Positions 319-11,179 of a stretch of 23,044 nt of DNA are shown here, piece after piece. The position numbers and the translations under genes are program-made. Source of the DNA: a virus; IMG/VR virus record IMGVR_UViG_3300030099_007661, positions 7,484 through 30,527 of that record. The stretch is one strand, 5' to 3'. Each line of letters begins with the position of its first letter. Position 1 is the first letter of the stretch. The notes beneath the pieces are model-generated. The model was not told the origin of the DNA, did not search any database, and saw only the letters and a list, made by a program, of their open reading frames with translations.

Positions 319-3300
319 CTATGCTAAAAGCTTAAACATTTTTCTGACACTGAAGGTGGAAAACCCCCAATTTGGGTCATACTTCAACCTTGCCATGTAT
401 GGTCGGTTAATATGTATGATATCCCTCTCCGGGTCAACGCCCCAGCATCTAATTGTATTAGTTTCATTGTTGTCATCAATAACCTTGACGACAAAAAAGT
501 TTTTACCGTTCTTTGACTTCTTTAGTTTACACTCCCTTGGAATGAACCAAGTCACACCCAGCTCTGGGTCATATTCTGAAATGGGGGGGATATAAAGTTC
601 GTTAAGTTTGTTTCTTACCGTTTCAGTTATGACAGAGCTAATCGGGAAAACACCGGTTAGATTAACTAAGGATTCGAGCTTCTCTTCTTCACTGAAGTCC
701 CCCTCTGGTTCGTACTTTGCGATATTTTCCTCTAGGTTTTTCAGCTTCCTTGGGCGGTCGACGCAAACTGCCGACCAAAAATGGCGGAGGCCCGAGAACC
801 TCTCGTCAACCAAGTCGTTGAGTGCTTGTGCGCGACATAGAGCATCTAGAGCCTTTTTATTGAGCTTTGAATATTTAACCTTGTCGTGAAACAAAAAGTC
901 TTCAACCGTGTTAAATGGCCTGTGTTCAATAATCTGCTGAATAGCGACTGCGCCGAGGCCCTTGATAGATGTTAGGGGTTGGACCAATGTCTTACTATCT
1001 TCGCTAATCTCCCAATTCACACCCGAAGTGTTTATGTTCAGAGGCTCAACGATATATCCCATTGATTTTGCGGTGGCAATAGCTCTCTCTTTTCTGGTTT
1101 CGGGCTCCTTATCCAAGAAGGCAGCTAGCCATTCGGCTGGATAGTAGTTGAGTAACCAAGCGCACTGATAGGACAAGATACAGTAAGAAACTGCATGAGA
1201 TTTATTGAAGCCATAGCCTGAAAAGTATTCAAACTTGTTCCAAAGCTCTCTTGCCTCGTGCGAGGCCATACCCTTCTCGAGGCAGCCCTTATGAAATTTG
1301 TCAAAGATTTTATCTTTCTCTTCTGCAACTACCCCTGTACCTTTCTTGGTTAAGAGTTTGCGGAGCTTGTTGCCTTCATCTAGGGTCAGGTTCTTGCCAA
1401 GCTTGTGAGCCAGAAGCGCGATTTGCTCTTGAAAAATAAGAAAACCATACGTTTCCTGAGTTACATCACGAACAGTTTGGTTCTGATACTCTACCTCATC
1501 CGGCTCTTGTTTTGCTCCGATGAACATCTTGTCAACGCCGGCTGACAGTGGGCCGGGTCGGTAGATAGAGGTAATCGCCGCAAGGTCTGTAATATTGTCT
1601 GGCTTTGCATTTTTGCAGAACGATTGTGCTCCGGGTTCTGTAAATTGGAAGATACCAGCCCATTTGCCTTTGTGGAATACATTTCGCCAGACCTGACTGT
1701 CATCTAGGTCAATCTTGTCTGGGTGCAGATGCTCATTGTAAAAGTTCCTGACCTGTTCAAATGTTGGGTTATCGATTCCATGGTGTCTCTTTAGGATACG
1801 CTCAACGGCGCCTTCTACCATTCTAAGAGAAGCCAAACCAAGAATATCAAACTTAATAAAACCCATGGGCTCAAGATGTCTAACATTTTGTCCTTCACTC
1901 CAAGGTGTCTGACGGACACCACCACTATTAATTAGTGGCATCCACTCATCTAGTCTCTCGCCAATCACCACACCACCGGCATGACGACTAGCAGAACGAG
2001 TCTGGCCATAGAGCGTTTCGACATGGGTCTTGATGTGTGGATATTTCTCCAAGAATTTTTGAAGCGTTTCAGAATACATCATTAGTTCTTCGAATGTCGG
2101 AGCATAAACACCAGCTGTAATGCCGTGTGCTTTCTTCGCAGGCGGCGTAGCTTCATGAACCATCTTACTGGTCACATTGTTCACCTCTGTAAACTCAATA
2201 CCATAGAACTTTGAAATGTCCTTGATAAGAGAACGAAGCTGTAATGTGTTCCAGTTAGTGATAGGCACAACTGTATCATCACCCCACTCATCAATCAGAT
2301 ATTCCTTCAGAACCATCGGGTCGGATACATCATAGTCAATATCTGGATAGCCTGAGCCGCCCTTGGTTAAAAACCGCTCAAACTGAAGACCATACTTGAT
2401 TGGGTCAACCTGCGTAATGCCAAGAACATAAGACACCAAGGAGCCGGCGGCAGAGCCGCGCCCAGGACCAACAAGCTGTTTCTCGACAGCCATATCAGAA
2501 ATAGCTTTCATTGTCAAGAAGTATTTAGAGAAGCCTCGACCATCAATGATATCGACCTCGTACTTCAACCTCTCGGCATATTCTTTGTTCTCTGCGAGAC
2601 CAAGGCTCCTAGCTCCCTCAACACATAAAGCAGCAAGAGTTTGCCCTGCCGTACTACCTTCTGGCACAACAAAGTCTGGAAGGCGAACCTCATTGTCTGG
2701 TAGAAAGTTTGCGATACGCTCGTGGGCAATATAGTAAGTTCTCTTGATGGACTCAAGAACAAGCTTGTCGTCATACTCTACTCCAACTGACTTGGAGTAA
2801 TTCTTGTATGCTTCCCACATCTGGTCTCCGTTCTTGGGATACAACTCGTATCCAATCTCCTCGACAGAAATAGGCAATTCCTCAGATAAATAATCTGGTC
2901 TGCCTTTGCCCAACCAGCCGAGGCGCTTGTATAACTCTCTGTCTTTCCAGACATTCTCATTGTAGTAGTGAGAATCCGCAGTTGATATCAAGTCGATGCC
3001 AAACTCATAGTGCATCTGAATGATATACTGGTTTAGTTCGTGCTGTTCTGGAATGTTGTTCCACTGTAACTCGCCATACCATCGGTCACCAAAGATAGAC
3101 TGCATCTTTTGTGTCGTGCTTCTCATTGCATCAAGGACAGCATCCGGGCCTTCGTCACGATTTTCCCAATAGTTTCCAGCGTATACACCACCAAGACAGG
3201 CACTGGCTGCAATGACGCCCTTGTTGTATTTCTTCAGCAAAGCATAGTCAACTCGTGGATAGCGATAGAAGTTATCGCCAACATAACTGGTTGAAATCAT

Positions 3301-3753
3301 TTTGAAAATGTTTTGTAAACCTTCTTGGTCTTGCGCAAGGAGAATAAGGTGTCGTCTACGATTTAGGACAGACTTCATCTTTTTCTTTGAAGCTTCGTTC
3401 TCGACGGTTGTACCCGATGAGCCATCTTCATACTCTGACTTCTTCTTCGCTGCTGCTTTGATTTGTTCGTATTCTTTCTTCCACTTTGCAACAGATGGAA
3501 TGAAATATGCCTCAACACCAAAGATTGGTTTGAAGTCTTTTCCTGACTTCTTCATTTTCTTGGCATGAAGAACTTGTCCTGCGAGACCATTAGCATTCCC
3601 ATGGTCAGTAAGTGCAAGGGCGTCCATGCCATTTTCATAAGCAAAGTCCATATGTTCTGCTGGGTACCCGAGGGCGTCAAAGGGTGAGCCCGCGACGGAA
3701 TGGGCATGAAGCCCGACAAAAGGAATACTAGGCTTATTTCTGGACATTTGCAA
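319..3753 (-). CDS. dnaE: DNA polymerase III alpha subunit (DnaE-type, family C), phage replicase
   Basis: This 1144-aa protein is a family C DNA polymerase, probably the main phage replicase. The N-terminal PHP domain (about 10-265) keeps the usual metal ligands: H16, H18, D26, H51, E81, H135, C186, D260 and H262. The palm has GPGRGSAAGS near 429-438, PDIDYD at 470-475 (D471 and D473 match E. coli D401 and D403) and FDILGL at 635-640 (D636 matches D555). RHAGGVVI, YRPGPLSAG and GYGFNKSHA follow in family order. A C-terminal OB-fold-like stretch lies near 1070-1130. The length is normal for DnaE. The start is either TTG at 3753, six bases after GGAGG, or ATG at 3747, twelve bases after it; I keep the TTG. 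It overlaps the 76-aa gene upstream by 20 bases. No separate DnaQ-like proofreader is seen in the window. Confidence 0.96.
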   Translation of the reverse strand: MQMSRNKPSIPFVGLHAHSVAGSPFDALGYPAEHMDFAYENGMDALALTDHGNANGLAGQVLHAKKMKKSGKDFKPIFGVEAYFIPSVAKWKKEYEQIKAAAKKKSEYEDGSSGTTVENEASKKKMKSVLNRRRHLILLAQDQEGLQNIFKMISTSYVGDNFYRYPRVDYALLKKYNKGVIAASACLGGVYAGNYWENRDEGPDAVLDAMRSTTQKMQSIFGDRWYGELQWNNIPEQHELNQYIIQMHYEFGIDLISTADSHYYNENVWKDRELYKRLGWLGKGRPDYLSEELPISVEEIGYELYPKNGDQMWEAYKNYSKSVGVEYDDKLVLESIKRTYYIAHERIANFLPDNEVRLPDFVVPEGSTAGQTLAALCVEGARSLGLAENKEYAERLKYEVDIIDGRGFSKYFLTMKAISDMAVEKQLVGPGRGSAAGSLVSYVLGITQVDPIKYGLQFERFLTKGGSGYPDIDYDVSDPMVLKEYLIDEWGDDTVVPITNWNTLQLRSLIKDISKFYGIEFTEVNNVTSKMVHEATPPAKKAHGITAGVYAPTFEELMMYSETLQKFLEKYPHIKTHVETLYGQTRSASRHAGGVVIGERLDEWMPLINSGGVRQTPWSEGQNVRHLEPMGFIKFDILGLASLRMVEGAVERILKRHHGIDNPTFEQVRNFYNEHLHPDKIDLDDSQVWRNVFHKGKWAGIFQFTEPGAQSFCKNAKPDNITDLAAITSIYRPGPLSAGVDKMFIGAKQEPDEVEYQNQTVRDVTQETYGFLIFQEQIALLAHKLGKNLTLDEGNKLRKLLTKKGTGVVAEEKDKIFDKFHKGCLEKGMASHEARELWNKFEYFSGYGFNKSHAVSYCILSYQCAWLLNYYPAEWLAAFLDKEPETRKERAIATAKSMGYIVEPLNINTSGVNWEISEDSKTLVQPLTSIKGLGAVAIQQIIEHRPFNTVEDFLFHDKVKYSKLNKKALDALCRAQALNDLVDERFSGLRHFWSAVCVDRPRKLKNLEENIAKYEPEGDFSEEEKLESLVNLTGVFPISSVITETVRNKLNELYIPPISEYDPELGVTWFIPRECKLKKSKNGKNFFVVKVIDDNNETNTIRCWGVDPERDIIHINRPYMARLKYDPNWGFSTFSVRKMFKLLA

Positions 3754-3984: not shown

Positions 3985-4818
3985 TCAAATAAAATAAGGC
4001 TTTCTCATGTTTTTGGACATGCCCTTAAAGATTAAATTACTAGCATAGAAGCTCCTCAAGGAGTCCCAACTGTCAAGTGTATAATATTTTTCTATCTCTA
4101 TCATTTCTTGTACATCTATTTTATCATGTTTAAATATTTTGTCAAGTGTAAAATGCCTAGCTGACCAACGTTCTTCGATGGGTAAGCCTTTATCCCCGCC
4201 AGTGTTACTCTCATTGAGTTGCCTGCGAAAAAGCAACCAGTCCTCAGGCGTGAAGCTGAAGGGGAGATATAAGCCATCCCTAACTGACTTTCCTTTATGA
4301 AAGCCGTATATCTTTTTGCCGGCCCTTATATCTGCGCGGTGTTTTTTCATTGCCAATGGAGAATATATTGCACAAGGGAATGATACAAAGTAGCTGCTTG
4401 GTATTGCCCATTTTGATATTTTTTTTGAAACCACAAAAGATGTTAAAGCGCCGTGCAAAACAGACCACCCTAAGCTATCTATCCTGTTTCTATGCTTCTG
4501 TAGAATAGGAGTATAAAATATTGAAATGTATTCTTTTTTGTAGTCGGGATATTTTTTAAAGTTCCAGCTATCGTATATTACAGGGTCTAATATATAGTCT
4601 CCAAGTCTTTTCCTAATTAGTGGTGACGTACTGTCATTGCACACTATCCAAATGCTCTTACAACCCACATAAGCGCACTCCTTTACAGAACGCTCGACTG
4701 CTAAAAAGTCCGGTGCAATAGGCTGCAGCACGTCTGGCCATGGGAGATTAAGTTCTTCTTTTCTTCCCGCAATTGGGACAATGCCAACTAAATTCCTATT
4801 TACATGTGGTGTATCCAC
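3985..4818 (-). CDS. Nucleotidyltransferase-like protein (putative)
   Basis: A 277-aa protein. The N-terminus (about 10-62) has the layout of NTP-transferase (sugar nucleotidyltransferase) folds: a strand ending in GIVPIAG, a conserved PWPDVLQPIAPD loop, a helix VERSVKECAYVGC and a strand IWIVCND. A later stretch, ISIFYTPI followed by SLGWSVLHGAL (about 98-125), would fit the next strand and helix of that fold. The classical GxGTRL signature and a clear metal-binding Asp pair are not obvious, so activity is uncertain. I recall similar unnamed proteins from other marine phages. The start is GTG at 4818, supported by GAGGA about eight bases upstream. It overlaps the preceding gene by 23 bases. 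It could modify a sugar or nucleotide, or keep only the fold. Confidence 0.6.
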   Translation of the reverse strand: MDTPHVNRNLVGIVPIAGRKEELNLPWPDVLQPIAPDFLAVERSVKECAYVGCKSIWIVCNDSTSPLIRKRLGDYILDPVIYDSWNFKKYPDYKKEYISIFYTPILQKHRNRIDSLGWSVLHGALTSFVVSKKISKWAIPSSYFVSFPCAIYSPLAMKKHRADIRAGKKIYGFHKGKSVRDGLYLPFSFTPEDWLLFRRQLNESNTGGDKGLPIEERWSARHFTLDKIFKHDKIDVQEMIEIEKYYTLDSWDSLRSFYASNLIFKGMSKNMRKPYFI

Positions 4819-5587
4819 TATAAAATTCCTCTACTGAAGGGTTTATAAACTTGATTCTATCGCTGTCAAAATATTCATTGTTATCTTCCTCGAATAAAAT
4901 TCTCTCTACATGCTCGACGGTGACCCTCCTAAGCTTAGGTTTGGAGTTTGGTTGTGGAGCTTTTTCATAAACTCCTGCATAGCCAGCATCAGCCAGACAA
5001 CTCCTTAGCTTGAACATTGCCATTGTATCTGAATAATTAAAATCATGCAAGTCTTTTTCTTCTAGTCTTGACAGCGTTATCGCATCTGTTACCCTTTTTG
5101 CTCCATCGACTCGGCCAGAATTGTAGAAACAGGCCTTGAAAACTAATTTATCTAGCGTGTTAATTGGCGATAAGTTTTCTTTCTTGGTCCCCAGCCTGGA
5201 AAGCTTGAAGTCGTCAATAACTAAAAATGTTTTCGGTTTTGCGATTTTTACAGGGTTTTCAAAAGTAATATTCGCATTGTCGCAAATGTAACACTTCTCA
5301 AAAGTATAACTCGCCAAAAGGTCATTTCCAAATAATTTTAGACTATTATCCGACACCCTTATTCTTTTTGTTTCTTTCTCTGTCAGGTTCGCACCCACGA
5401 AACTTAAGATGTTTTGAATTTCATCAAATATCTCTCTCTTTCCCTTCATTCCGAGAAAAGACTGCTTTTCTGGGTCATCAAAGAAGAAAGGACGAAAAGT
5501 ACAATTCGCAATGAAATGGTATTGATTGTAGAAAGCGTACATTATTGAGGCAAGAGAGTGGCCGATAACGATGTTCTTTATAAACAC
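4796..5587 (-). CDS. Unknown protein with a Rossmann-like N-terminus
   Basis: A 263-aa protein that I do not recognise. It opens with a hydrophobic strand and a glycine turn, KNIVIGHSLASIMYAFY, as seen at the start of nucleotide-binding Rossmann-type folds; this is only a resemblance. The middle has a hydrophobic strand FLVIDDF (about 121-127) and the C-terminal half is rich in charged helices. No signal peptide or transmembrane segment is seen. The start is GTG at 5587; no strong Shine-Dalgarno precedes it, but it overlaps the end of the lipoprotein gene by 10 bases, suggesting translational coupling. It also overlaps the nucleotidyltransferase-like gene downstream by 23 bases, so the two may act together. 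Confidence 0.7.
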   Translation of the reverse strand: MFIKNIVIGHSLASIMYAFYNQYHFIANCTFRPFFFDDPEKQSFLGMKGKREIFDEIQNILSFVGANLTEKETKRIRVSDNSLKLFGNDLLASYTFEKCYICDNANITFENPVKIAKPKTFLVIDDFKLSRLGTKKENLSPINTLDKLVFKACFYNSGRVDGAKRVTDAITLSRLEEKDLHDFNYSDTMAMFKLRSCLADAGYAGVYEKAPQPNSKPKLRRVTVEHVERILFEEDNNEYFDSDRIKFINPSVEEFYSGYTTCK

Positions 5588-7644
5588 ATCAACTCTGACG
5601 CGAAAATATAAGCAGGTTCAAATGGATAAGACATAAGTGCTGCCTGGGGACCCTCCTCTCTCGGAAGACACGCCTCGTCAATTATAGACATCAAATCATT
5701 ATACATGCTTAGTGCATCAGATGTGAGCTGGAAATTGCGACCCCCGGTCGCAATTGCCATATCTTCCCAATCTCCGTTGAAGGGTTTAGAGAATGTGTAC
5801 AACTTTAAATTGATTGAGGCCGCGGCCGTGGCAGCAACAATCTCCGCAGTTATAGGGCGCCCGGGGCCCTCAGGGTCATCTGCATCTCGGAGATAAGATT
5901 GTTCATCCTCATCAGAGAACACAATAATGACCCTAGCCGAGTTATCTCTCCAGTTTATAATAAAATTCTCCTTATCTGGTAAACTACTCGTATCCCTCCA
6001 CCAACTGGTTGCTGCTATGTCCACAGGAGCATCCTGTGAGATGTTTCTTGTGGATAGATATATAGCATCGAGTAGCATTTCACTGCCTGTATCCATGCCT
6101 TCGTCGCCTAAAGCAGAAAAACTTGCAAGAAATTGTTCGAAGGGAGAAATATTTGATACCAAAACCAAGGTTTCATCCCCATCCTCAACAAACTCTTTTG
6201 GACCCACAATCAGCCCCCACTGAAGTGGTTCTTCCGCCCTAAAGTGAGTGGAGAACCGATTGAGAGCTATTTTTACTGCCTCGATTTCATCATCCATAGA
6301 CCCAGACCAATCAATTATAAACAAAATATCTGTTTCCCTTATTTCCTCTCCGTAATCAACAACTCCATCACAGTCATTATCGGCGCCGTCACATATCTCT
6401 TCCTGAGGTGTCACTTCGCCCAAACAAAAGCCGGCTTGAAAATTATTATCTACATCGTTGCCCCAGGCGCCGCGTGAGCAGTACATCTCTCCGGGCGAAC
6501 AGACTCCCACAAACAATGTTTCTGGCTGGGCCGTATAACAAGCTTGGGTTAAATCCTCGTCGATGGACTCATCACAATCCTCGTCGAAATTGTTGCAATC
6601 CTCCTGCTGTAAGACAATACCGATGCGCGGGTCGCATGGTGGTGGCTCTGGTACTGGGAGATATGTGCACAATGCCGCACAGTCAGTCATTCTCATCTCT
6701 GTGCAGTTCTCATCTACGCATTCACACGTCTTAAAACCCTGGCCGCACAAAAGCGGACTCTCAAAGCAAGGCATCAAGTTTCCCACATCGTCCGCGGTGC
6801 ACAGGCAATTCAGTTCTTCGTCTATTTGTCCGTCGCAATCGTTGTCTTCGCCATCACATTCCTCATCCGAAGGCTGAGTTGCGGTGCATGATATCCAATT
6901 GCCAGCCATACATGTTTCTATCCCCCTTTCACAGGCGGTCTCGCATGGCCGGACAAGTTCTTCATCAATTGTTCCGTCGCAGTCGTTATCAACGTTATCG
7001 CAGATATCTTGGGGCACTGGGCCGCAGGCATCGCAAACATTCCTTTGCTCTTCATCAATTTCGCCGTCACAGTCGTCGTCCTTATAGTTACACCTCTCTT
7101 CTTCCGGTTCGCAAACTATACACTCTCCATACTCAATATTGCCTTTGGAACATAAGATTTGTTGTTGACCCTCAACGCCCTCTATTTCACATCGAACAGA
7201 AATTGTAATATCATTCTCAATCCCCGGGGGGCACTGAAGGATAGTGTTGCAGCCACTCCTAGACAACACCTCGTTTGGAGGGCATGTCAAGTCCTGGCTC
7301 CTGTCGCAAACTTCGAACATGTCATTACAGATATTCATCACAACTTCGGACGCTTGCACGCCTAACCCACTAGGAGGGCAATACCACATCTGACGCTGGC
7401 AACACTCAGGCTTACAATCGCAAAAGTTATCCTCTGAGCTGGTAACCCTCTCACATGGGTCGATATATGCGTCAGGAAAGAGAAAATCAATATAATAAAT
7501 ATCTGCGTATGCAGCATCTAGCAGGCTCGAATCTACAGATATTCTATGTGCATCTGGATTCATGGAGGAACTGACAGAATTATCGCTGCAAGATACAAGT
7601 GCAGAGACCGTAAGAAAACAAATAAGATTTACAGTGTTGTTCAT
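5578..7644 (-). CDS. Secreted lipoprotein with MopE-like DxDxDG repeats and a C-terminal vWA domain
   Basis: A 688-aa protein with a short N-terminal signal sequence ending in a lipobox (LVSC, lipidated Cys 19). The n-region lacks positive charge, which is atypical. The middle is rich in Cys and Asp and contains five copies of a Cys-anchored DxDCDGxID-type motif (about 185-199, 215-229, 263-277, 350-364, 418-434), like the putative metal-binding MopE repeats of deltaproteobacterial surface proteins. The C-terminal vWA domain (about 438-655) keeps a full MIDAS: DWSGS at 445-449, T519 and D578. It is probably cell-surface attached and binds Ca2+ or Mg2+. The start is ATG 7644, sharing ATGA with the thyX stop; a 31-residue longer reading lacks signal-peptide character. 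Function is unknown: adhesion, surface masking and superinfection exclusion are all possible. Confidence 0.88.
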   Translation of the reverse strand: MNNTVNLICFLTVSALVSCSDNSVSSSMNPDAHRISVDSSLLDAAYADIYYIDFLFPDAYIDPCERVTSSEDNFCDCKPECCQRQMWYCPPSGLGVQASEVVMNICNDMFEVCDRSQDLTCPPNEVLSRSGCNTILQCPPGIENDITISVRCEIEGVEGQQQILCSKGNIEYGECIVCEPEEERCNYKDDDCDGEIDEEQRNVCDACGPVPQDICDNVDNDCDGTIDEELVRPCETACERGIETCMAGNWISCTATQPSDEECDGEDNDCDGQIDEELNCLCTADDVGNLMPCFESPLLCGQGFKTCECVDENCTEMRMTDCAALCTYLPVPEPPPCDPRIGIVLQQEDCNNFDEDCDESIDEDLTQACYTAQPETLFVGVCSPGEMYCSRGAWGNDVDNNFQAGFCLGEVTPQEEICDGADNDCDGVVDYGEEIRETDILFIIDWSGSMDDEIEAVKIALNRFSTHFRAEEPLQWGLIVGPKEFVEDGDETLVLVSNISPFEQFLASFSALGDEGMDTGSEMLLDAIYLSTRNISQDAPVDIAATSWWRDTSSLPDKENFIINWRDNSARVIIVFSDEDEQSYLRDADDPEGPGRPITAEIVAATAAASINLKLYTFSKPFNGDWEDMAIATGGRNFQLTSDALSMYNDLMSIIDEACLPREEGPQAALMSYPFEPAYIFASELMCL
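6343..7092 (-). repeat. Five imperfect coding repeats for DxDxDG metal-binding motifs
   Basis: Inside the lipoprotein gene five imperfect direct repeats of about 45 bases encode the pattern C-x3-D-x-D-C-D-x2-ID-E. Copies 1, 2, 3 and 5 keep DCDG; copy 4 reads DCDES. Spacing is irregular (15 to 75 residues). The DxDxDG spacing is that of EF-hand-like calcium loops, and the flanking cysteines probably form disulfides in the envelope. Confidence 0.8.
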
Positions 7645-8348
7645 TCTTCTCTCTTTCTTTGGAAAGCGCTTACAGAAATTGGGTAATGCTGGAGCGCTAT
7701 CTCCATACACGCCTTTGCAACCTGCTGAATCTCCCATTGGGCCCCGTCGTGAATGCGCAGTGAAACAAACTTTAATAAATTGTGCAAATTTACGGTTCCA
7801 TAGTATTCGGTGTATAAATTTTGCGGCAAAACTCCGCGGGCCTGCTCTCTACAAACTCCCGCTTCAATCATAGCGTTGTAAAGATTCAAACTTCTAGAGT
7901 TATGCATTTTGACAGCATTCGAGGCAGATTCATACCCTATTTGTAAATAAGCAGAATCAAGAGTTGGGTTAACCAACTCATTGTTGCTAGCCTGGCGGTT
8001 GCTTTTGTGCTGTGTTCTAAATTTTGGCGGACTATAGAACCTCATGTCAACACCGGTGTACCTTCTGCTAATCTCATTGTAGGCCCAGGTTCTATGCCTG
8101 TGGTGCTGAGAACGTATGAACAGTGGAACAGTAAAACGCATAGTAATCGTACAGTGTTCAAATGGACTGGTGTGGTTGTGCTGAATAAGGTAATTTATAA
8201 GTTTAATGTCTTTCTCGTCGAGAAAGTGCTTCTCTGCCCCGAAAGAGACTCTTGCTGCATTAACGACTGTTAAATCACTACCCATGTGGGAAACGTATTC
8301 TACTTTTCCTATTCCATCTTCGAATAAATCATAAGTCTTCTGCTTCAT
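7641..8348 (-). CDS. thyX: FAD-dependent thymidylate synthase ThyX
   Basis: A 235-aa ThyX, which makes dTMP from dUMP using methylenetetrahydrofolate, NADPH and FAD. The family motif RHRx7S is at 84-94 (RHRTWAYNEIS) and continues as RRY at 95-97. The conserved C-terminal block is present: REQARGVLPQNLYTEYYGT at about 167-185, then a LRIHDGAQWEI segment. Length is normal for the family. ATG 8348 lies inside the end of the GroES-like gene (20-base overlap), and the stop codon shares an ATGA with the lipoprotein start. With the ribonucleotide reductase nearby it supplies DNA precursors during infection. Confidence 0.97.
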   Translation of the reverse strand: MKQKTYDLFEDGIGKVEYVSHMGSDLTVVNAARVSFGAEKHFLDEKDIKLINYLIQHNHTSPFEHCTITMRFTVPLFIRSQHHRHRTWAYNEISRRYTGVDMRFYSPPKFRTQHKSNRQASNNELVNPTLDSAYLQIGYESASNAVKMHNSRSLNLYNAMIEAGVCREQARGVLPQNLYTEYYGTVNLHNLLKFVSLRIHDGAQWEIQQVAKACMEIALQHYPISVSAFQRKREE

Positions 8349-8676
8349 TGAACCCTCTTAAAAAGCCCATCACATAATTCTCTAAAATTACCGTGTATTT
8401 CTTATCTCTATACTCGATTTCCTCAGTCATTGAAGAGTCAATAATTATTGTCCTCTTTTCTCTTTCTAGGGATTTAATCTTCTGAAAAGCCATCGAGCAA
8501 TCTGGTGCAATTTCTAGAACGGTAGCCGCGACGTAGCGGCTGTTTTTGTTCTCTTTGTAGTCATCGGGCAGAATGACTGCGCTTTTTTGCTCTTCTCGGT
8601 GTTCTAGATTTTTATGTACTATAATTGTCAAGTGCCTATTCAAAGGCTTCAAAACCGGGGCTACCTTATTATACAT
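8329..8676 (-). CDS. GroES/gp31-like co-chaperonin (putative)
   Basis: A 115-aa protein that reads like a diverged GroES-type beta-barrel. It opens with VLKPLNRHLTIIV, comparable to the PLxDRVLV strand of Cpn10. It has a KSAVILPDD segment where GroES has its mobile loop and GIVLP strand, and ends with VILENYVMGFL, comparable to the final vxExDIlail strand. T4 gp31, a phage co-chaperonin used for capsid folding, has a similar size (111 aa). Identity is low, so the call rests on strand order. It overlaps the GapR-like gene by 8 bases and thyX by 20. The start is ATG 8676 with AAGGA about ten bases upstream. Confidence 0.5.
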   Translation of the reverse strand: MYNKVAPVLKPLNRHLTIIVHKNLEHREEQKSAVILPDDYKENKNSRYVAATVLEIAPDCSMAFQKIKSLEREKRTIIIDSSMTEEIEYRDKKYTVILENYVMGFLRGFNEAEDL

Positions 8677-9005: not shown

Positions 9006-9320
9006 TTAAACAGAAAAACTCTCACCGCAACCACAAGTTCTTTTTGCGTTTGGGTTTAAAAATTTAAATCCAGACTGATTTAATTCATTTACAAAATCTA
9101 TTTGTGTTCCCATCAAATAAAGATAGCTTTTTGGGTCAACATAGATGTTGATACCACAACTCTCTAATATCCGGTCGGTAGGTTCCGGGTTGTCAAACTT
9201 TAAATTATATGTGAATCCTGAGCATCCCCCTCCTCGCACTCCAGCTCTGACACCAGTTTCTTCTTTATCTTCGAGAAGTGCTTTTATCTTCGCCGCGGCG
9301 GATTGAGTTAAAGCTATCAT
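9006..9320 (-). CDS. IscA/ErpA-like (HesB family) iron-sulfur carrier
   Basis: A 104-aa A-type Fe-S carrier protein. The three conserved cysteines are present: C33 in GGGCSGF and C96 and C98 in the C-terminal TCGCGESF. Length and fold pattern match bacterial IscA, ErpA and HesB. Such genes occur in several marine T4-like phages. The start codon shares ATGA with the stop of the ribonucleotide reductase, so the two are translationally coupled. The partner apoprotein is not evident, because a class II reductase uses cobalamin rather than an Fe-S cluster; it may sustain host Fe-S enzymes. The stop codon lies just before the promoter of the next operon. Confidence 0.93.
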   Translation of the reverse strand: MIALTQSAAAKIKALLEDKEETGVRAGVRGGGCSGFTYNLKFDNPEPTDRILESCGINIYVDPKSYLYLMGTQIDFVNELNQSGFKFLNPNAKRTCGCGESFSV

Positions 9321-11179
9321 ACGAACTTCACTTCGCAGGAGCCACCGGCGCAGGCGACCTCACCTTTGAGGTCAGTGTTATCTTCTTCTTCCGTAACCTT
9401 GGTAAGGTCGATACTAGTAAGAGATGCCATAAGCGCTTCGTAAGTTTCTTTCGAACAATCCTCAAATGGTGCTTGTTTATAAGTGTGGTCCGAGAATGGT
9501 AGGACAGATAAGCCATTGTAACTACTACGATTTTCCCACATCCATTCACCAACATCAACCCACTCTGCATCCTTGATGGAGATGGTGGCAGAAATATTAT
9601 GAGTATTTTGACCTTTACGAAAGCCCGGGCGGACCCACTCATCAGTTACATATTTTACTCGCTTTAACAATTGCAAAGCGGACTCAGACCTAAGAATTGA
9701 GCCCTCTGGGGCCTTTTGCGGGATAGAAATAACAGCAGTTGTATGTGGGCTGAAGTATTCGTCCTCAATAAGCTCTGGGTGATTTGCTGCCAGGTGTGCA
9801 TATATTGGTTCATTTTTGCCAACGCGGATGCGGCGGATATAATAATCGTTATGCCAAGCATGGATACCAGAACTGGTACCCAAAGTTAAACTTGTTGTGC
9901 CGGCGGGCTTAACGCAGGTTGTTCTCGCCGCGGGTTTAATACCGATTAACTCTGCAACCCGGGCGTTCTCTTCTTTGACTCGGCTAGCCGCTTCTTTCAT
10001 GTCTAGGGCAAGAATGGCGCCTGAGGCAATGCCTGTCATCGATACGCCGATAAGTGCGTCCCTTTCTGTTGTTCTTCGCCAAACGTCGCGAAGATAGTGA
10101 AAATCTGTGTAGCTGGCCTGTAGGGTGCCGATAAATGCTGCGGCCTTTACTCTTTCGTTCAAGTCTTCTTGGGACTCGACATTTGATACATTCACCTCTG
10201 TGAGGTTACAGAACTGAAATGGCCTAAGGCCAATCTCACAACAAGGGTTTGTTCCCCAGTCTTTATCATTAGAAAAGTAGAAGCCAGGCTCACCAGCACC
10301 AGATGCCTTCACTCTATCCCACAAGTCCATAAAATATTCTCTATCAATCTTATGGCGAAGAAGGACGACAGAGTTGTTTGCCCTACCGCGTTGGGGGTTG
10401 GTTTCCCACCAATTGCCAGTCTTTGCAGCAATCATATCCTCGTCATCAGCCGAGAATAGTGAAATCAGAGCTGCACGGCGGATGCCGCCGGCTAAGACGG
10501 CATCTGCAATATGACAAATTATGTCATGTACCTCGATTGGGGCCAATTTATCCCCGTTGTCCTTCTGAGATAACATTCCCTCTAATTTCACTAAACACTC
10601 ACGTAGTGGTTGCGGCCCGGGGGCCTTGCCCCCAGAAGTAATGAGTGCTGCGCCTTTTGGGCGGATATCTGAATAATCGAAGCGGAGGCGAGAGCCCCCA
10701 TTGAAGTATGAGCGCACCAAAGCCTTTACTGCGTCAGCCCACCCTTCAATTGAGTCATTTACAAGAAAGCGGCGTGTTCTCTTTGGGTTTGGTTTTGTAA
10801 TCTCTGGCAGCTTTTCTACATGGTGCTTTTGCACGCTGTAGCCAACACCAGTGCCTCCAAGTAACAAGAACATTGCCTCTCCAAAGCAGCGCCAGTCGTC
10901 TGCTGGCATGAATGCACAATTAAAAATTCGATTCGGTGCAACCTCGATGGGCTTGCCCCCAAACTGCATCGAACGCATTGATGGCAACACTTTCCTATCA
11001 AAAACCATCTTGTAGGCTTTTCTTATCTGAAGTTCAAGTTCTGGGAAATTTTTTAGATGCATATTCATGTTTCTGGTGACTAATTCGTTCCAGGTTTCTC
11101 TTCTCTTCTCACTCTCCAAGTATCTTGCATACTTCATATGCACTGTAATTTCAGATAATATCTTGTTCGATAGCTTCAT
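9317..11179 (-). CDS. nrdJ: Adenosylcobalamin-dependent (class II) ribonucleotide reductase
   Basis: A 620-aa class II reductase resembling monomeric RTPR, which reduces ribonucleotides using coenzyme B12. By comparison with Lactobacillus leichmannii RTPR, C88 (FNCAF) and C324 (FCNLTE) are the redox pair, C313 (NPCCEIGL) the thiyl-radical cysteine and E315 the catalytic acid; the 11-residue spacing from C313 to C324 is conserved. The C-terminal tail has a CAGGSC pair (610-615) for re-reduction by thioredoxin. It is about 120 residues shorter than the roughly 740-aa RTPR, suggesting a trimmed allosteric or peripheral region; no N-terminal ATP-cone is seen. ATG 11179 directly follows the helicase stop codon. 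Activity would depend on host cobalamin. Confidence 0.95.
   Translation of the reverse strand: MKLSNKILSEITVHMKYARYLESEKRRETWNELVTRNMNMHLKNFPELELQIRKAYKMVFDRKVLPSMRSMQFGGKPIEVAPNRIFNCAFMPADDWRCFGEAMFLLLGGTGVGYSVQKHHVEKLPEITKPNPKRTRRFLVNDSIEGWADAVKALVRSYFNGGSRLRFDYSDIRPKGAALITSGGKAPGPQPLRECLVKLEGMLSQKDNGDKLAPIEVHDIICHIADAVLAGGIRRAALISLFSADDEDMIAAKTGNWWETNPQRGRANNSVVLLRHKIDREYFMDLWDRVKASGAGEPGFYFSNDKDWGTNPCCEIGLRPFQFCNLTEVNVSNVESQEDLNERVKAAAFIGTLQASYTDFHYLRDVWRRTTERDALIGVSMTGIASGAILALDMKEAASRVKEENARVAELIGIKPAARTTCVKPAGTTSLTLGTSSGIHAWHNDYYIRRIRVGKNEPIYAHLAANHPELIEDEYFSPHTTAVISIPQKAPEGSILRSESALQLLKRVKYVTDEWVRPGFRKGQNTHNISATISIKDAEWVDVGEWMWENRSSYNGLSVLPFSDHTYKQAPFEDCSKETYEALMASLTSIDLTKVTEEEDNTDLKGEVACAGGSCEVKFV

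Follow-up and report, generated by a model that had tools for sequence, protein, structure and literature searches.

A gene on the minus strand of an uncultured phage genome encodes a large predicted lipoprotein with a von Willebrand A (vWA) domain, here called vWAlp, which represents a conserved family carried by large and uncultured phages that are probably marine (the marine origin being our assumption from the IMG data sets). We propose, with a probability of about 40%, that vWAlp is a phage-encoded adhesin-type outer-membrane lipoprotein that changes what the infected-cell surface binds, superinfection exclusion being the most likely benefit. The parts of the protein are known; as far as our searches reach, no description exists of their combination in a gene that is fixed in a phage lineage. 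The window (the whole stretch of DNA analyzed, 23,044 nucleotides) is part of a virus record of 30,527 bases, and the same stretch lies within a 130,653-base IMG/VR contig (L001). Its relevant features are as follows.

319..3753, minus strand: DNA polymerase III alpha-like replicase, closing the cassette (phrog_405, 6.5e-220)
3985..4818, minus strand: NTase277, predicted sugar-nucleotidyltransferase-like fold (structure prediction)
4796..5587, minus strand: o263, conserved downstream gene with no known relative, also present in sister phages without vWAlp there
5578..7644, minus strand: vWAlp, the vWA lipoprotein gene (688 residues, pI 4.05, 49 Cys; 121 distinct IMG/VR relatives)
5659..6348, minus strand: vWA domain, residues 433 to 662, predicted integrin-beta-I-like fold (structure model)
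5911..5913, minus strand: MIDAS residue D578, invariant in 40/40 homologues
6088..6090, minus strand: MIDAS residue T519, T in 28/40 homologues
6298..6312, minus strand: MIDAS motif D445-x-S447-x-S449, invariant in 40/40 homologues
6349..6381, minus strand: MopE-type motif 5, DNDCDGVVDYG, residues 422 to 432 (Pfam and motif count)
6553..6585, minus strand: MopE-type motif 4, DEDCDESIDED, residues 354 to 364 (motif count)
6814..6846, minus strand: MopE-type motif 3, DNDCDGQIDEE, residues 267 to 277 (Pfam and motif count)
6958..6990, minus strand: MopE-type motif 2, DNDCDGTIDEE, residues 219 to 229 (Pfam and motif count)
7048..7080, minus strand: MopE-type motif 1, DDDCDGEIDEE, residues 189 to 199 (Pfam and motif count)
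7471..7587, minus strand: disordered linker after the lipid anchor, residues 20 to 58 (pLDDT <50)
7588..7644, minus strand: signal peptide and lipobox LVSC, residues 1 to 19 (Cys19 invariant in 40/40 homologues)
7641..8348, minus strand: thyX, upstream neighbor of vWAlp (PF02511, 5.8e-48; ATGA overlap)
8329..8676, minus strand: GroES/Cpn10-like gene of the conserved cassette (PF00166, 1e-4)
9317..11179, minus strand: B12-dependent (class II) ribonucleotide reductase, start of the cassette (profile matches and context)

The coordinates and features that an initial annotation had assigned to vWAlp were right, the strand having been left unstated; there is no comparable reading frame on the plus strand of 5578 to 7644. 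From the N to the C terminus, the protein consists of a signal peptide with lipobox, a linker, a Cys-rich region with five MopE-type motifs, and the vWA domain. It begins with MNNTVNLICFLTVSALVSC-SDNS, and the annotated lipobox is there, reading LVSC with Cys19. The signal peptide of the window protein carries no Lys or Arg, in which most relatives differ. The five MopE-type motifs, starting at residues 189, 219, 267, 354, and 422, compare with a mean of 0.07 and a maximum of 2 in shuffled sequences of the same composition, and the Pfam model PF11617 (Cu-binding_MopE) matched four stretches (E value of 3e-9; 37.4 bits, cut-off of 27). The count of five motifs stands, although not all are of the DxDCDG type as first described, since one reads DEDCDE. 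The motif residues are present, and metal binding is predicted from them.

The AlphaFold2 model of vWAlp (mean pLDDT of 81.8) matched solved vWA domains, including those of TFIIH subunits and integrin beta I domains, with Z scores of 16 to 17 over 173 to 200 residues. The vWA models of Pfam remained below their cut-offs (VWA_4, 14.2 bits versus 27; VWA, 13.8 bits versus 23.8). Integrin beta I and other MIDAS vWA domains have the predicted fold and the MIDAS residues in common with vWAlp, but at 10 to 18% identity, the kinship is one of fold alone. A complete MIDAS had been reported for the window protein, and all of its residues (D-x-S-x-S, T, and D) are indeed present; in the alignment of 40 homologues, C19, D445, S447, S449, and D578 were invariant, while position 519 (T in 28, G in 11, and S in 1) was not conserved.

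Scans of IMG/VR contigs yielded more than 100 vWAlp-related loci, from which the 121 distinct sequences were gathered. Among homologues with a complete N terminus, 102 of 115 passed a strict lipobox rule; of 995 other genes taken from these loci, 13 did so. In several of the 13 homologues that failed the rule, a lipobox was still visible by eye (e.g., LASC and LMGC). The residue at position +2 was Asp in just 3 of the 102 passing homologues. The order of repeats followed by vWA was the same in all phage homologues (116/116). For two close, nonidentical copies (L176 and L179), dN/dS was 0.052 across the gene and 0.04 when taken for the vWA domain; vWAlp is under strong purifying selection. No match was found in the INPHARED collection (about 50,000 phage records), so that isolated phages show none, and sequence searches of PHROGs, NCBIfam, and PDB gave nothing above chance. 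Our literature searches found no description of the family.

Given its position within a replication operon, vWAlp may be expressed early, together with the genes for nucleotide metabolism and replication. The signal peptide would direct the protein through Sec, Cys19 would be lipidated, and Ser rather than Asp at position +2 would send it to the outer membrane, the rules for such sorting deriving from Escherichia coli. A disordered tether of ca. 40 residues and a Cys-rich, putatively metal-binding repeat stalk would then keep the vWA domain off the membrane, where its MIDAS could bind an acidic ligand via a divalent cation. In this way, the surface binding of the infected cell would be altered, and with the receptor occupied or masked, further phages would fail to adsorb, i.e., superinfection exclusion. 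The features on which this scheme builds (lipobox, repeats, MIDAS residues, purifying selection, and a conserved site) are those that can be read from the sequences.

Among the possible benefits, we rank superinfection exclusion first because there is a precedent of a phage lipoprotein, T5 Llp (PMC9586334), ahead of an influence on adhesion or gliding like that of CglB, envelope remodeling or lysis, and a role in the virion, in this order. T5 Llp acts in superinfection exclusion by jamming FhuA; being small (about 61 residues) and periplasmic, it offers a loose parallel (PMC9586334). Exclusion lipoproteins of the Llp/Cor type are phage-encoded envelope lipoproteins, as predicted for vWAlp, but they have about 60 to 80 residues and neither vWA domain nor repeats, compared with the 688 residues of vWAlp. 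We class vWAlp among the phage-encoded envelope lipoproteins but outside the Llp, CglB, and bacterial vWA-MopE families (CglB judged by description).

A small exported protein, KFYDF...QLIDGEIKKPTTLY (alignment A6), bears on the host. Of 25 large phage records, 16 encode it, among them the 130-kb copy of the window's phage (G055:51461-51637; E value of 6e-22). In the phylum containing the Myxococcota record L075, 91 of the 188 genomes searched have it, versus 0/149 and 0/148 genomes of two control phyla. This suggests that the hosts are Myxococcota-like, on evidence that is good but, with two control phyla compared, not conclusive, and lends independent support to the hint at the host given in the initial annotation. 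Clear Shine-Dalgarno motifs in the vWAlp phages fit with such hosts and disfavor the Bacteroidota, which had been considered because of the C-x-D start. Further phage copies of KFYDF...QLIDGEIKKPTTLY lie at L058:10099-10341, L033:16831-17088, and elsewhere; the bacterial gene adjoins that of a TPR-like protein in L311 and L314.

With hosts of this kind, the next candidate, possible though clearly less probable than superinfection exclusion, is interference with adhesion or motility. Infected cells would stick together or to particles, or a host vWA adhesin would be outcompeted and gliding stopped, raising the local host density for progeny. To our knowledge, no stalk of MopE-type repeats exists in CglB, which would be the model for such an effect and is a host gene of the focal-adhesion machinery. 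CglB, the gliding adhesin of Myxococcus xanthus, is a substratum-binding lipoprotein of the cell surface and has a von Willebrand A domain (PMC12288465, PMC13104615). The match of the vWAlp model to integrin beta I domains and the Myxococcota signal of the KFYDF marker are in line with this; however, the likeness to CglB is by description, and a search with the vWA profile against 282 genomes of the Myxococcota-containing phylum returned a single match, on a phage-like contig. This 34.9-kb contig (G287:C1; loci L319, L320, and L326) is of phage origin, carries a lipobox-MopE-vWA gene, and has 45% GC in a genome of about 67% GC (66 to 71% in the rest of G287), so contamination of the bin is possible. 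We rejected it as proof of a host.

Some phages carry at the same site a second vWA type, with VAVMMVVDVSGSM replacing DILFIVDWSGSM. The two types (DWSGSM and DVSGSM) share the locus, alone or in tandem (L014:7977-12603, L059:7425-11034, L170, L171, L187, L188, and L065), the tandem of L014 being reversed in L059/L066. In L005, a type A vWA domain is fused to a type B-like N-terminal part, in which we see signs of domain shuffling. Two types at one locus fit the behavior of a specificity module. An exchange of alleles peculiar to vWAlp was rejected: between L150 and L151, the DNA polymerases are 97% identical, while identity falls to 49% in vWAlp and comparably in o263 (39%), cpn10 (48%), and NTase277 (65%). 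Since its neighbors diverge about as much, we read this as general mosaicism across the cassette genes, and because vWAlp diverges no faster than o263 or NTase277, it shows no arms-race signal of its own.

The genes around vWAlp are arranged in a cassette whose order is kept throughout the window's clade: ribonucleotide reductase, (IscA), o90, cpn10, thyX, vWAlp, o263, NTase277, and DNA polymerase III. The vWAlp start codon overlaps the thyX stop as ATGA, confirming the operon with thyX proposed at first, and the adjacency to thyX recurs in most relatives. L011 has the same pairing and overlap despite otherwise different neighbors; the pairing is absent in L002, L004, L005, and L017. A polymerase scan delimited the distribution, with the loci falling into two sharply distinct groups. 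Where the DNA polymerase was at least 73.8% identical to that of the window, all readable loci had vWAlp at the cassette site; where it was at most 69.8% identical, cpn10/thyX was followed by o263, and vWAlp was absent at the site. In sister genomes, the gene occurs at other sites (G031 and G035; G005, G007, G009, G012, and G024), and each of the 11 contigs of 100 kb or more that the scan returned has a copy somewhere; the 95-kb contig G033 has none. As o263 and NTase277 stay where sister phages miss vWAlp, they are not obligate partners, and we rejected a functional tie; both are fixed beside the DNA polymerase III gene in the window's phage group. The conserved C[LFY] ending of vWAlp is accounted for, within the clade, by the overlapping o263 start codon.

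Several other genes of these loci may be recorded here. A cytidylyltransferase-like gene (VSGGFDPIHVGH) lies between thyX and vWAlp at L026:6598-7053, L027:7585-7995, and L178:989-1405, and a PurA/PurZ-like adenylosuccinate synthetase gene, perhaps for base modification, follows vWAlp at L049:9994-10989. The class II ribonucleotide reductase of the window (9317 to 11179) shares 61 to 67% identity with its counterparts in Microcystis phage Mel-JY01, an Oceanospirillum phage, and a Vibrio phage; for the DNA polymerase, relatives this close are lacking among isolates.

Frequent occupants of the slot between thyX/cpn10 and o263 are exported genes, namely, SLT lytic transglycosylases (PF01464), a GH25 lysozyme, and a matrixin-like lipoprotein. 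In about a dozen loci, and also in the different context of L007/L008, the gene immediately upstream of vWAlp encodes an SLT transglycosylase with a signal peptide, and a lipoprotein of ca. 200 residues with an HELVH motif follows vWAlp in L033, L034, L035, L039, L040, and L046. (This metalloprotease-like gene, at L033:9725-10336 and L040:9977-10582, belongs to a second phage group.) With such neighbors, vWAlp might instead act together with the adjacent exported cell-wall enzymes, opening the envelope late in infection. We consider this unlikely: an SLT match was found in just 7 of 26 large records and not in the 130-kb copy of the window's phage, sister phages without vWAlp in the slot keep SLT there, and the window vWAlp lies within a replication operon. 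A lysis module was rejected, as most large records have no SLT.

It is more improbable still that vWAlp is part of the particle, for instance, a decoration protein or a tail-tip adhesin. For some viruses, proteins with vWA domains have been implicated in the assembly of the virion (PMC7824862), and the full-length homologues were found in phage contigs alone. Yet the initial annotation had itself named a structural role as the case against its reading, and neither the conserved lipobox nor the location, among replication and nucleotide genes rather than virion genes, supports it; the N terminus also lacks the capsid-targeting-like start seen in neighboring genes of some such phages. These starts, MKxxFENWRxYL or MKITKxxLxxIIKEEI, open many of the phage genes (L033, L036, L040, L042, L049, L058, and L319) and look like the T4-type capsid-targeting sequences of internal head proteins. 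The MoxR-vWA and TerF proteins of jumbo phages are likewise vWA proteins of large phages, but they belong to chaperone or Ter systems, have no repeats, and have not been described as lipoproteins (PMC7824862).

The initial annotation had suggested that vWAlp may be a gene captured from the host. Its codon use was the most typical of the 14 window genes tested (r = 0.912), and on this ground, together with the purifying selection and the wide distribution in phages, a recent capture is rejected; we regard vWAlp as an old phage gene. The architecture had also been ascribed to surface proteins of deltaproteobacteria, which holds for the single parts but not for their combination. Scans of bacterial genomes returned matches to the repeat region alone, mainly in Myxococcota and other Deltaproteobacteria, and found no chromosomal protein of the same layout. 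Like vWAlp, the PF11617 proteins of Myxococcota and other bacteria are Cys rich with DxDCDGxxDE repeats; however, among 92 bacterial open reading frames with at least three repeats, a MIDAS motif was present in 14, where it almost always preceded the repeats, and 3 combined it with a lipobox-like start. That vWAlp is a captured host gene carried as passive cargo, of no benefit to the phage, is very improbable: MopE-type repeats are abundant in Myxococcota, but the gene is under purifying selection (dN/dS of 0.05), fixed in the whole clade, and typical in codon use, and the genome scans found no full-length bacterial homologue.

Returning to the reading of vWAlp as a surface adhesin, the surface-acting phage lipoproteins known so far are small and block one receptor, while vWAlp is large and fixed in an uncultured lineage. 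If it acts on the surface, these phages would rebuild how probably predatory or social bacteria adhere or display their receptors. A bolder and rather unlikely version is that large phages of Myxococcota-like bacteria have, as a whole lineage, an adhesin of their own that resembles the CglB-type surface vWA lipoprotein of the host by convergence. This phage adhesin would control adhesion, motility, or kin contact of infected cells, with the exchangeable vWA types as specificity modules. The vWAlp family also helps host assignment for an abundant orphan phage group, for which the KFYDF marker points to Myxococcota.
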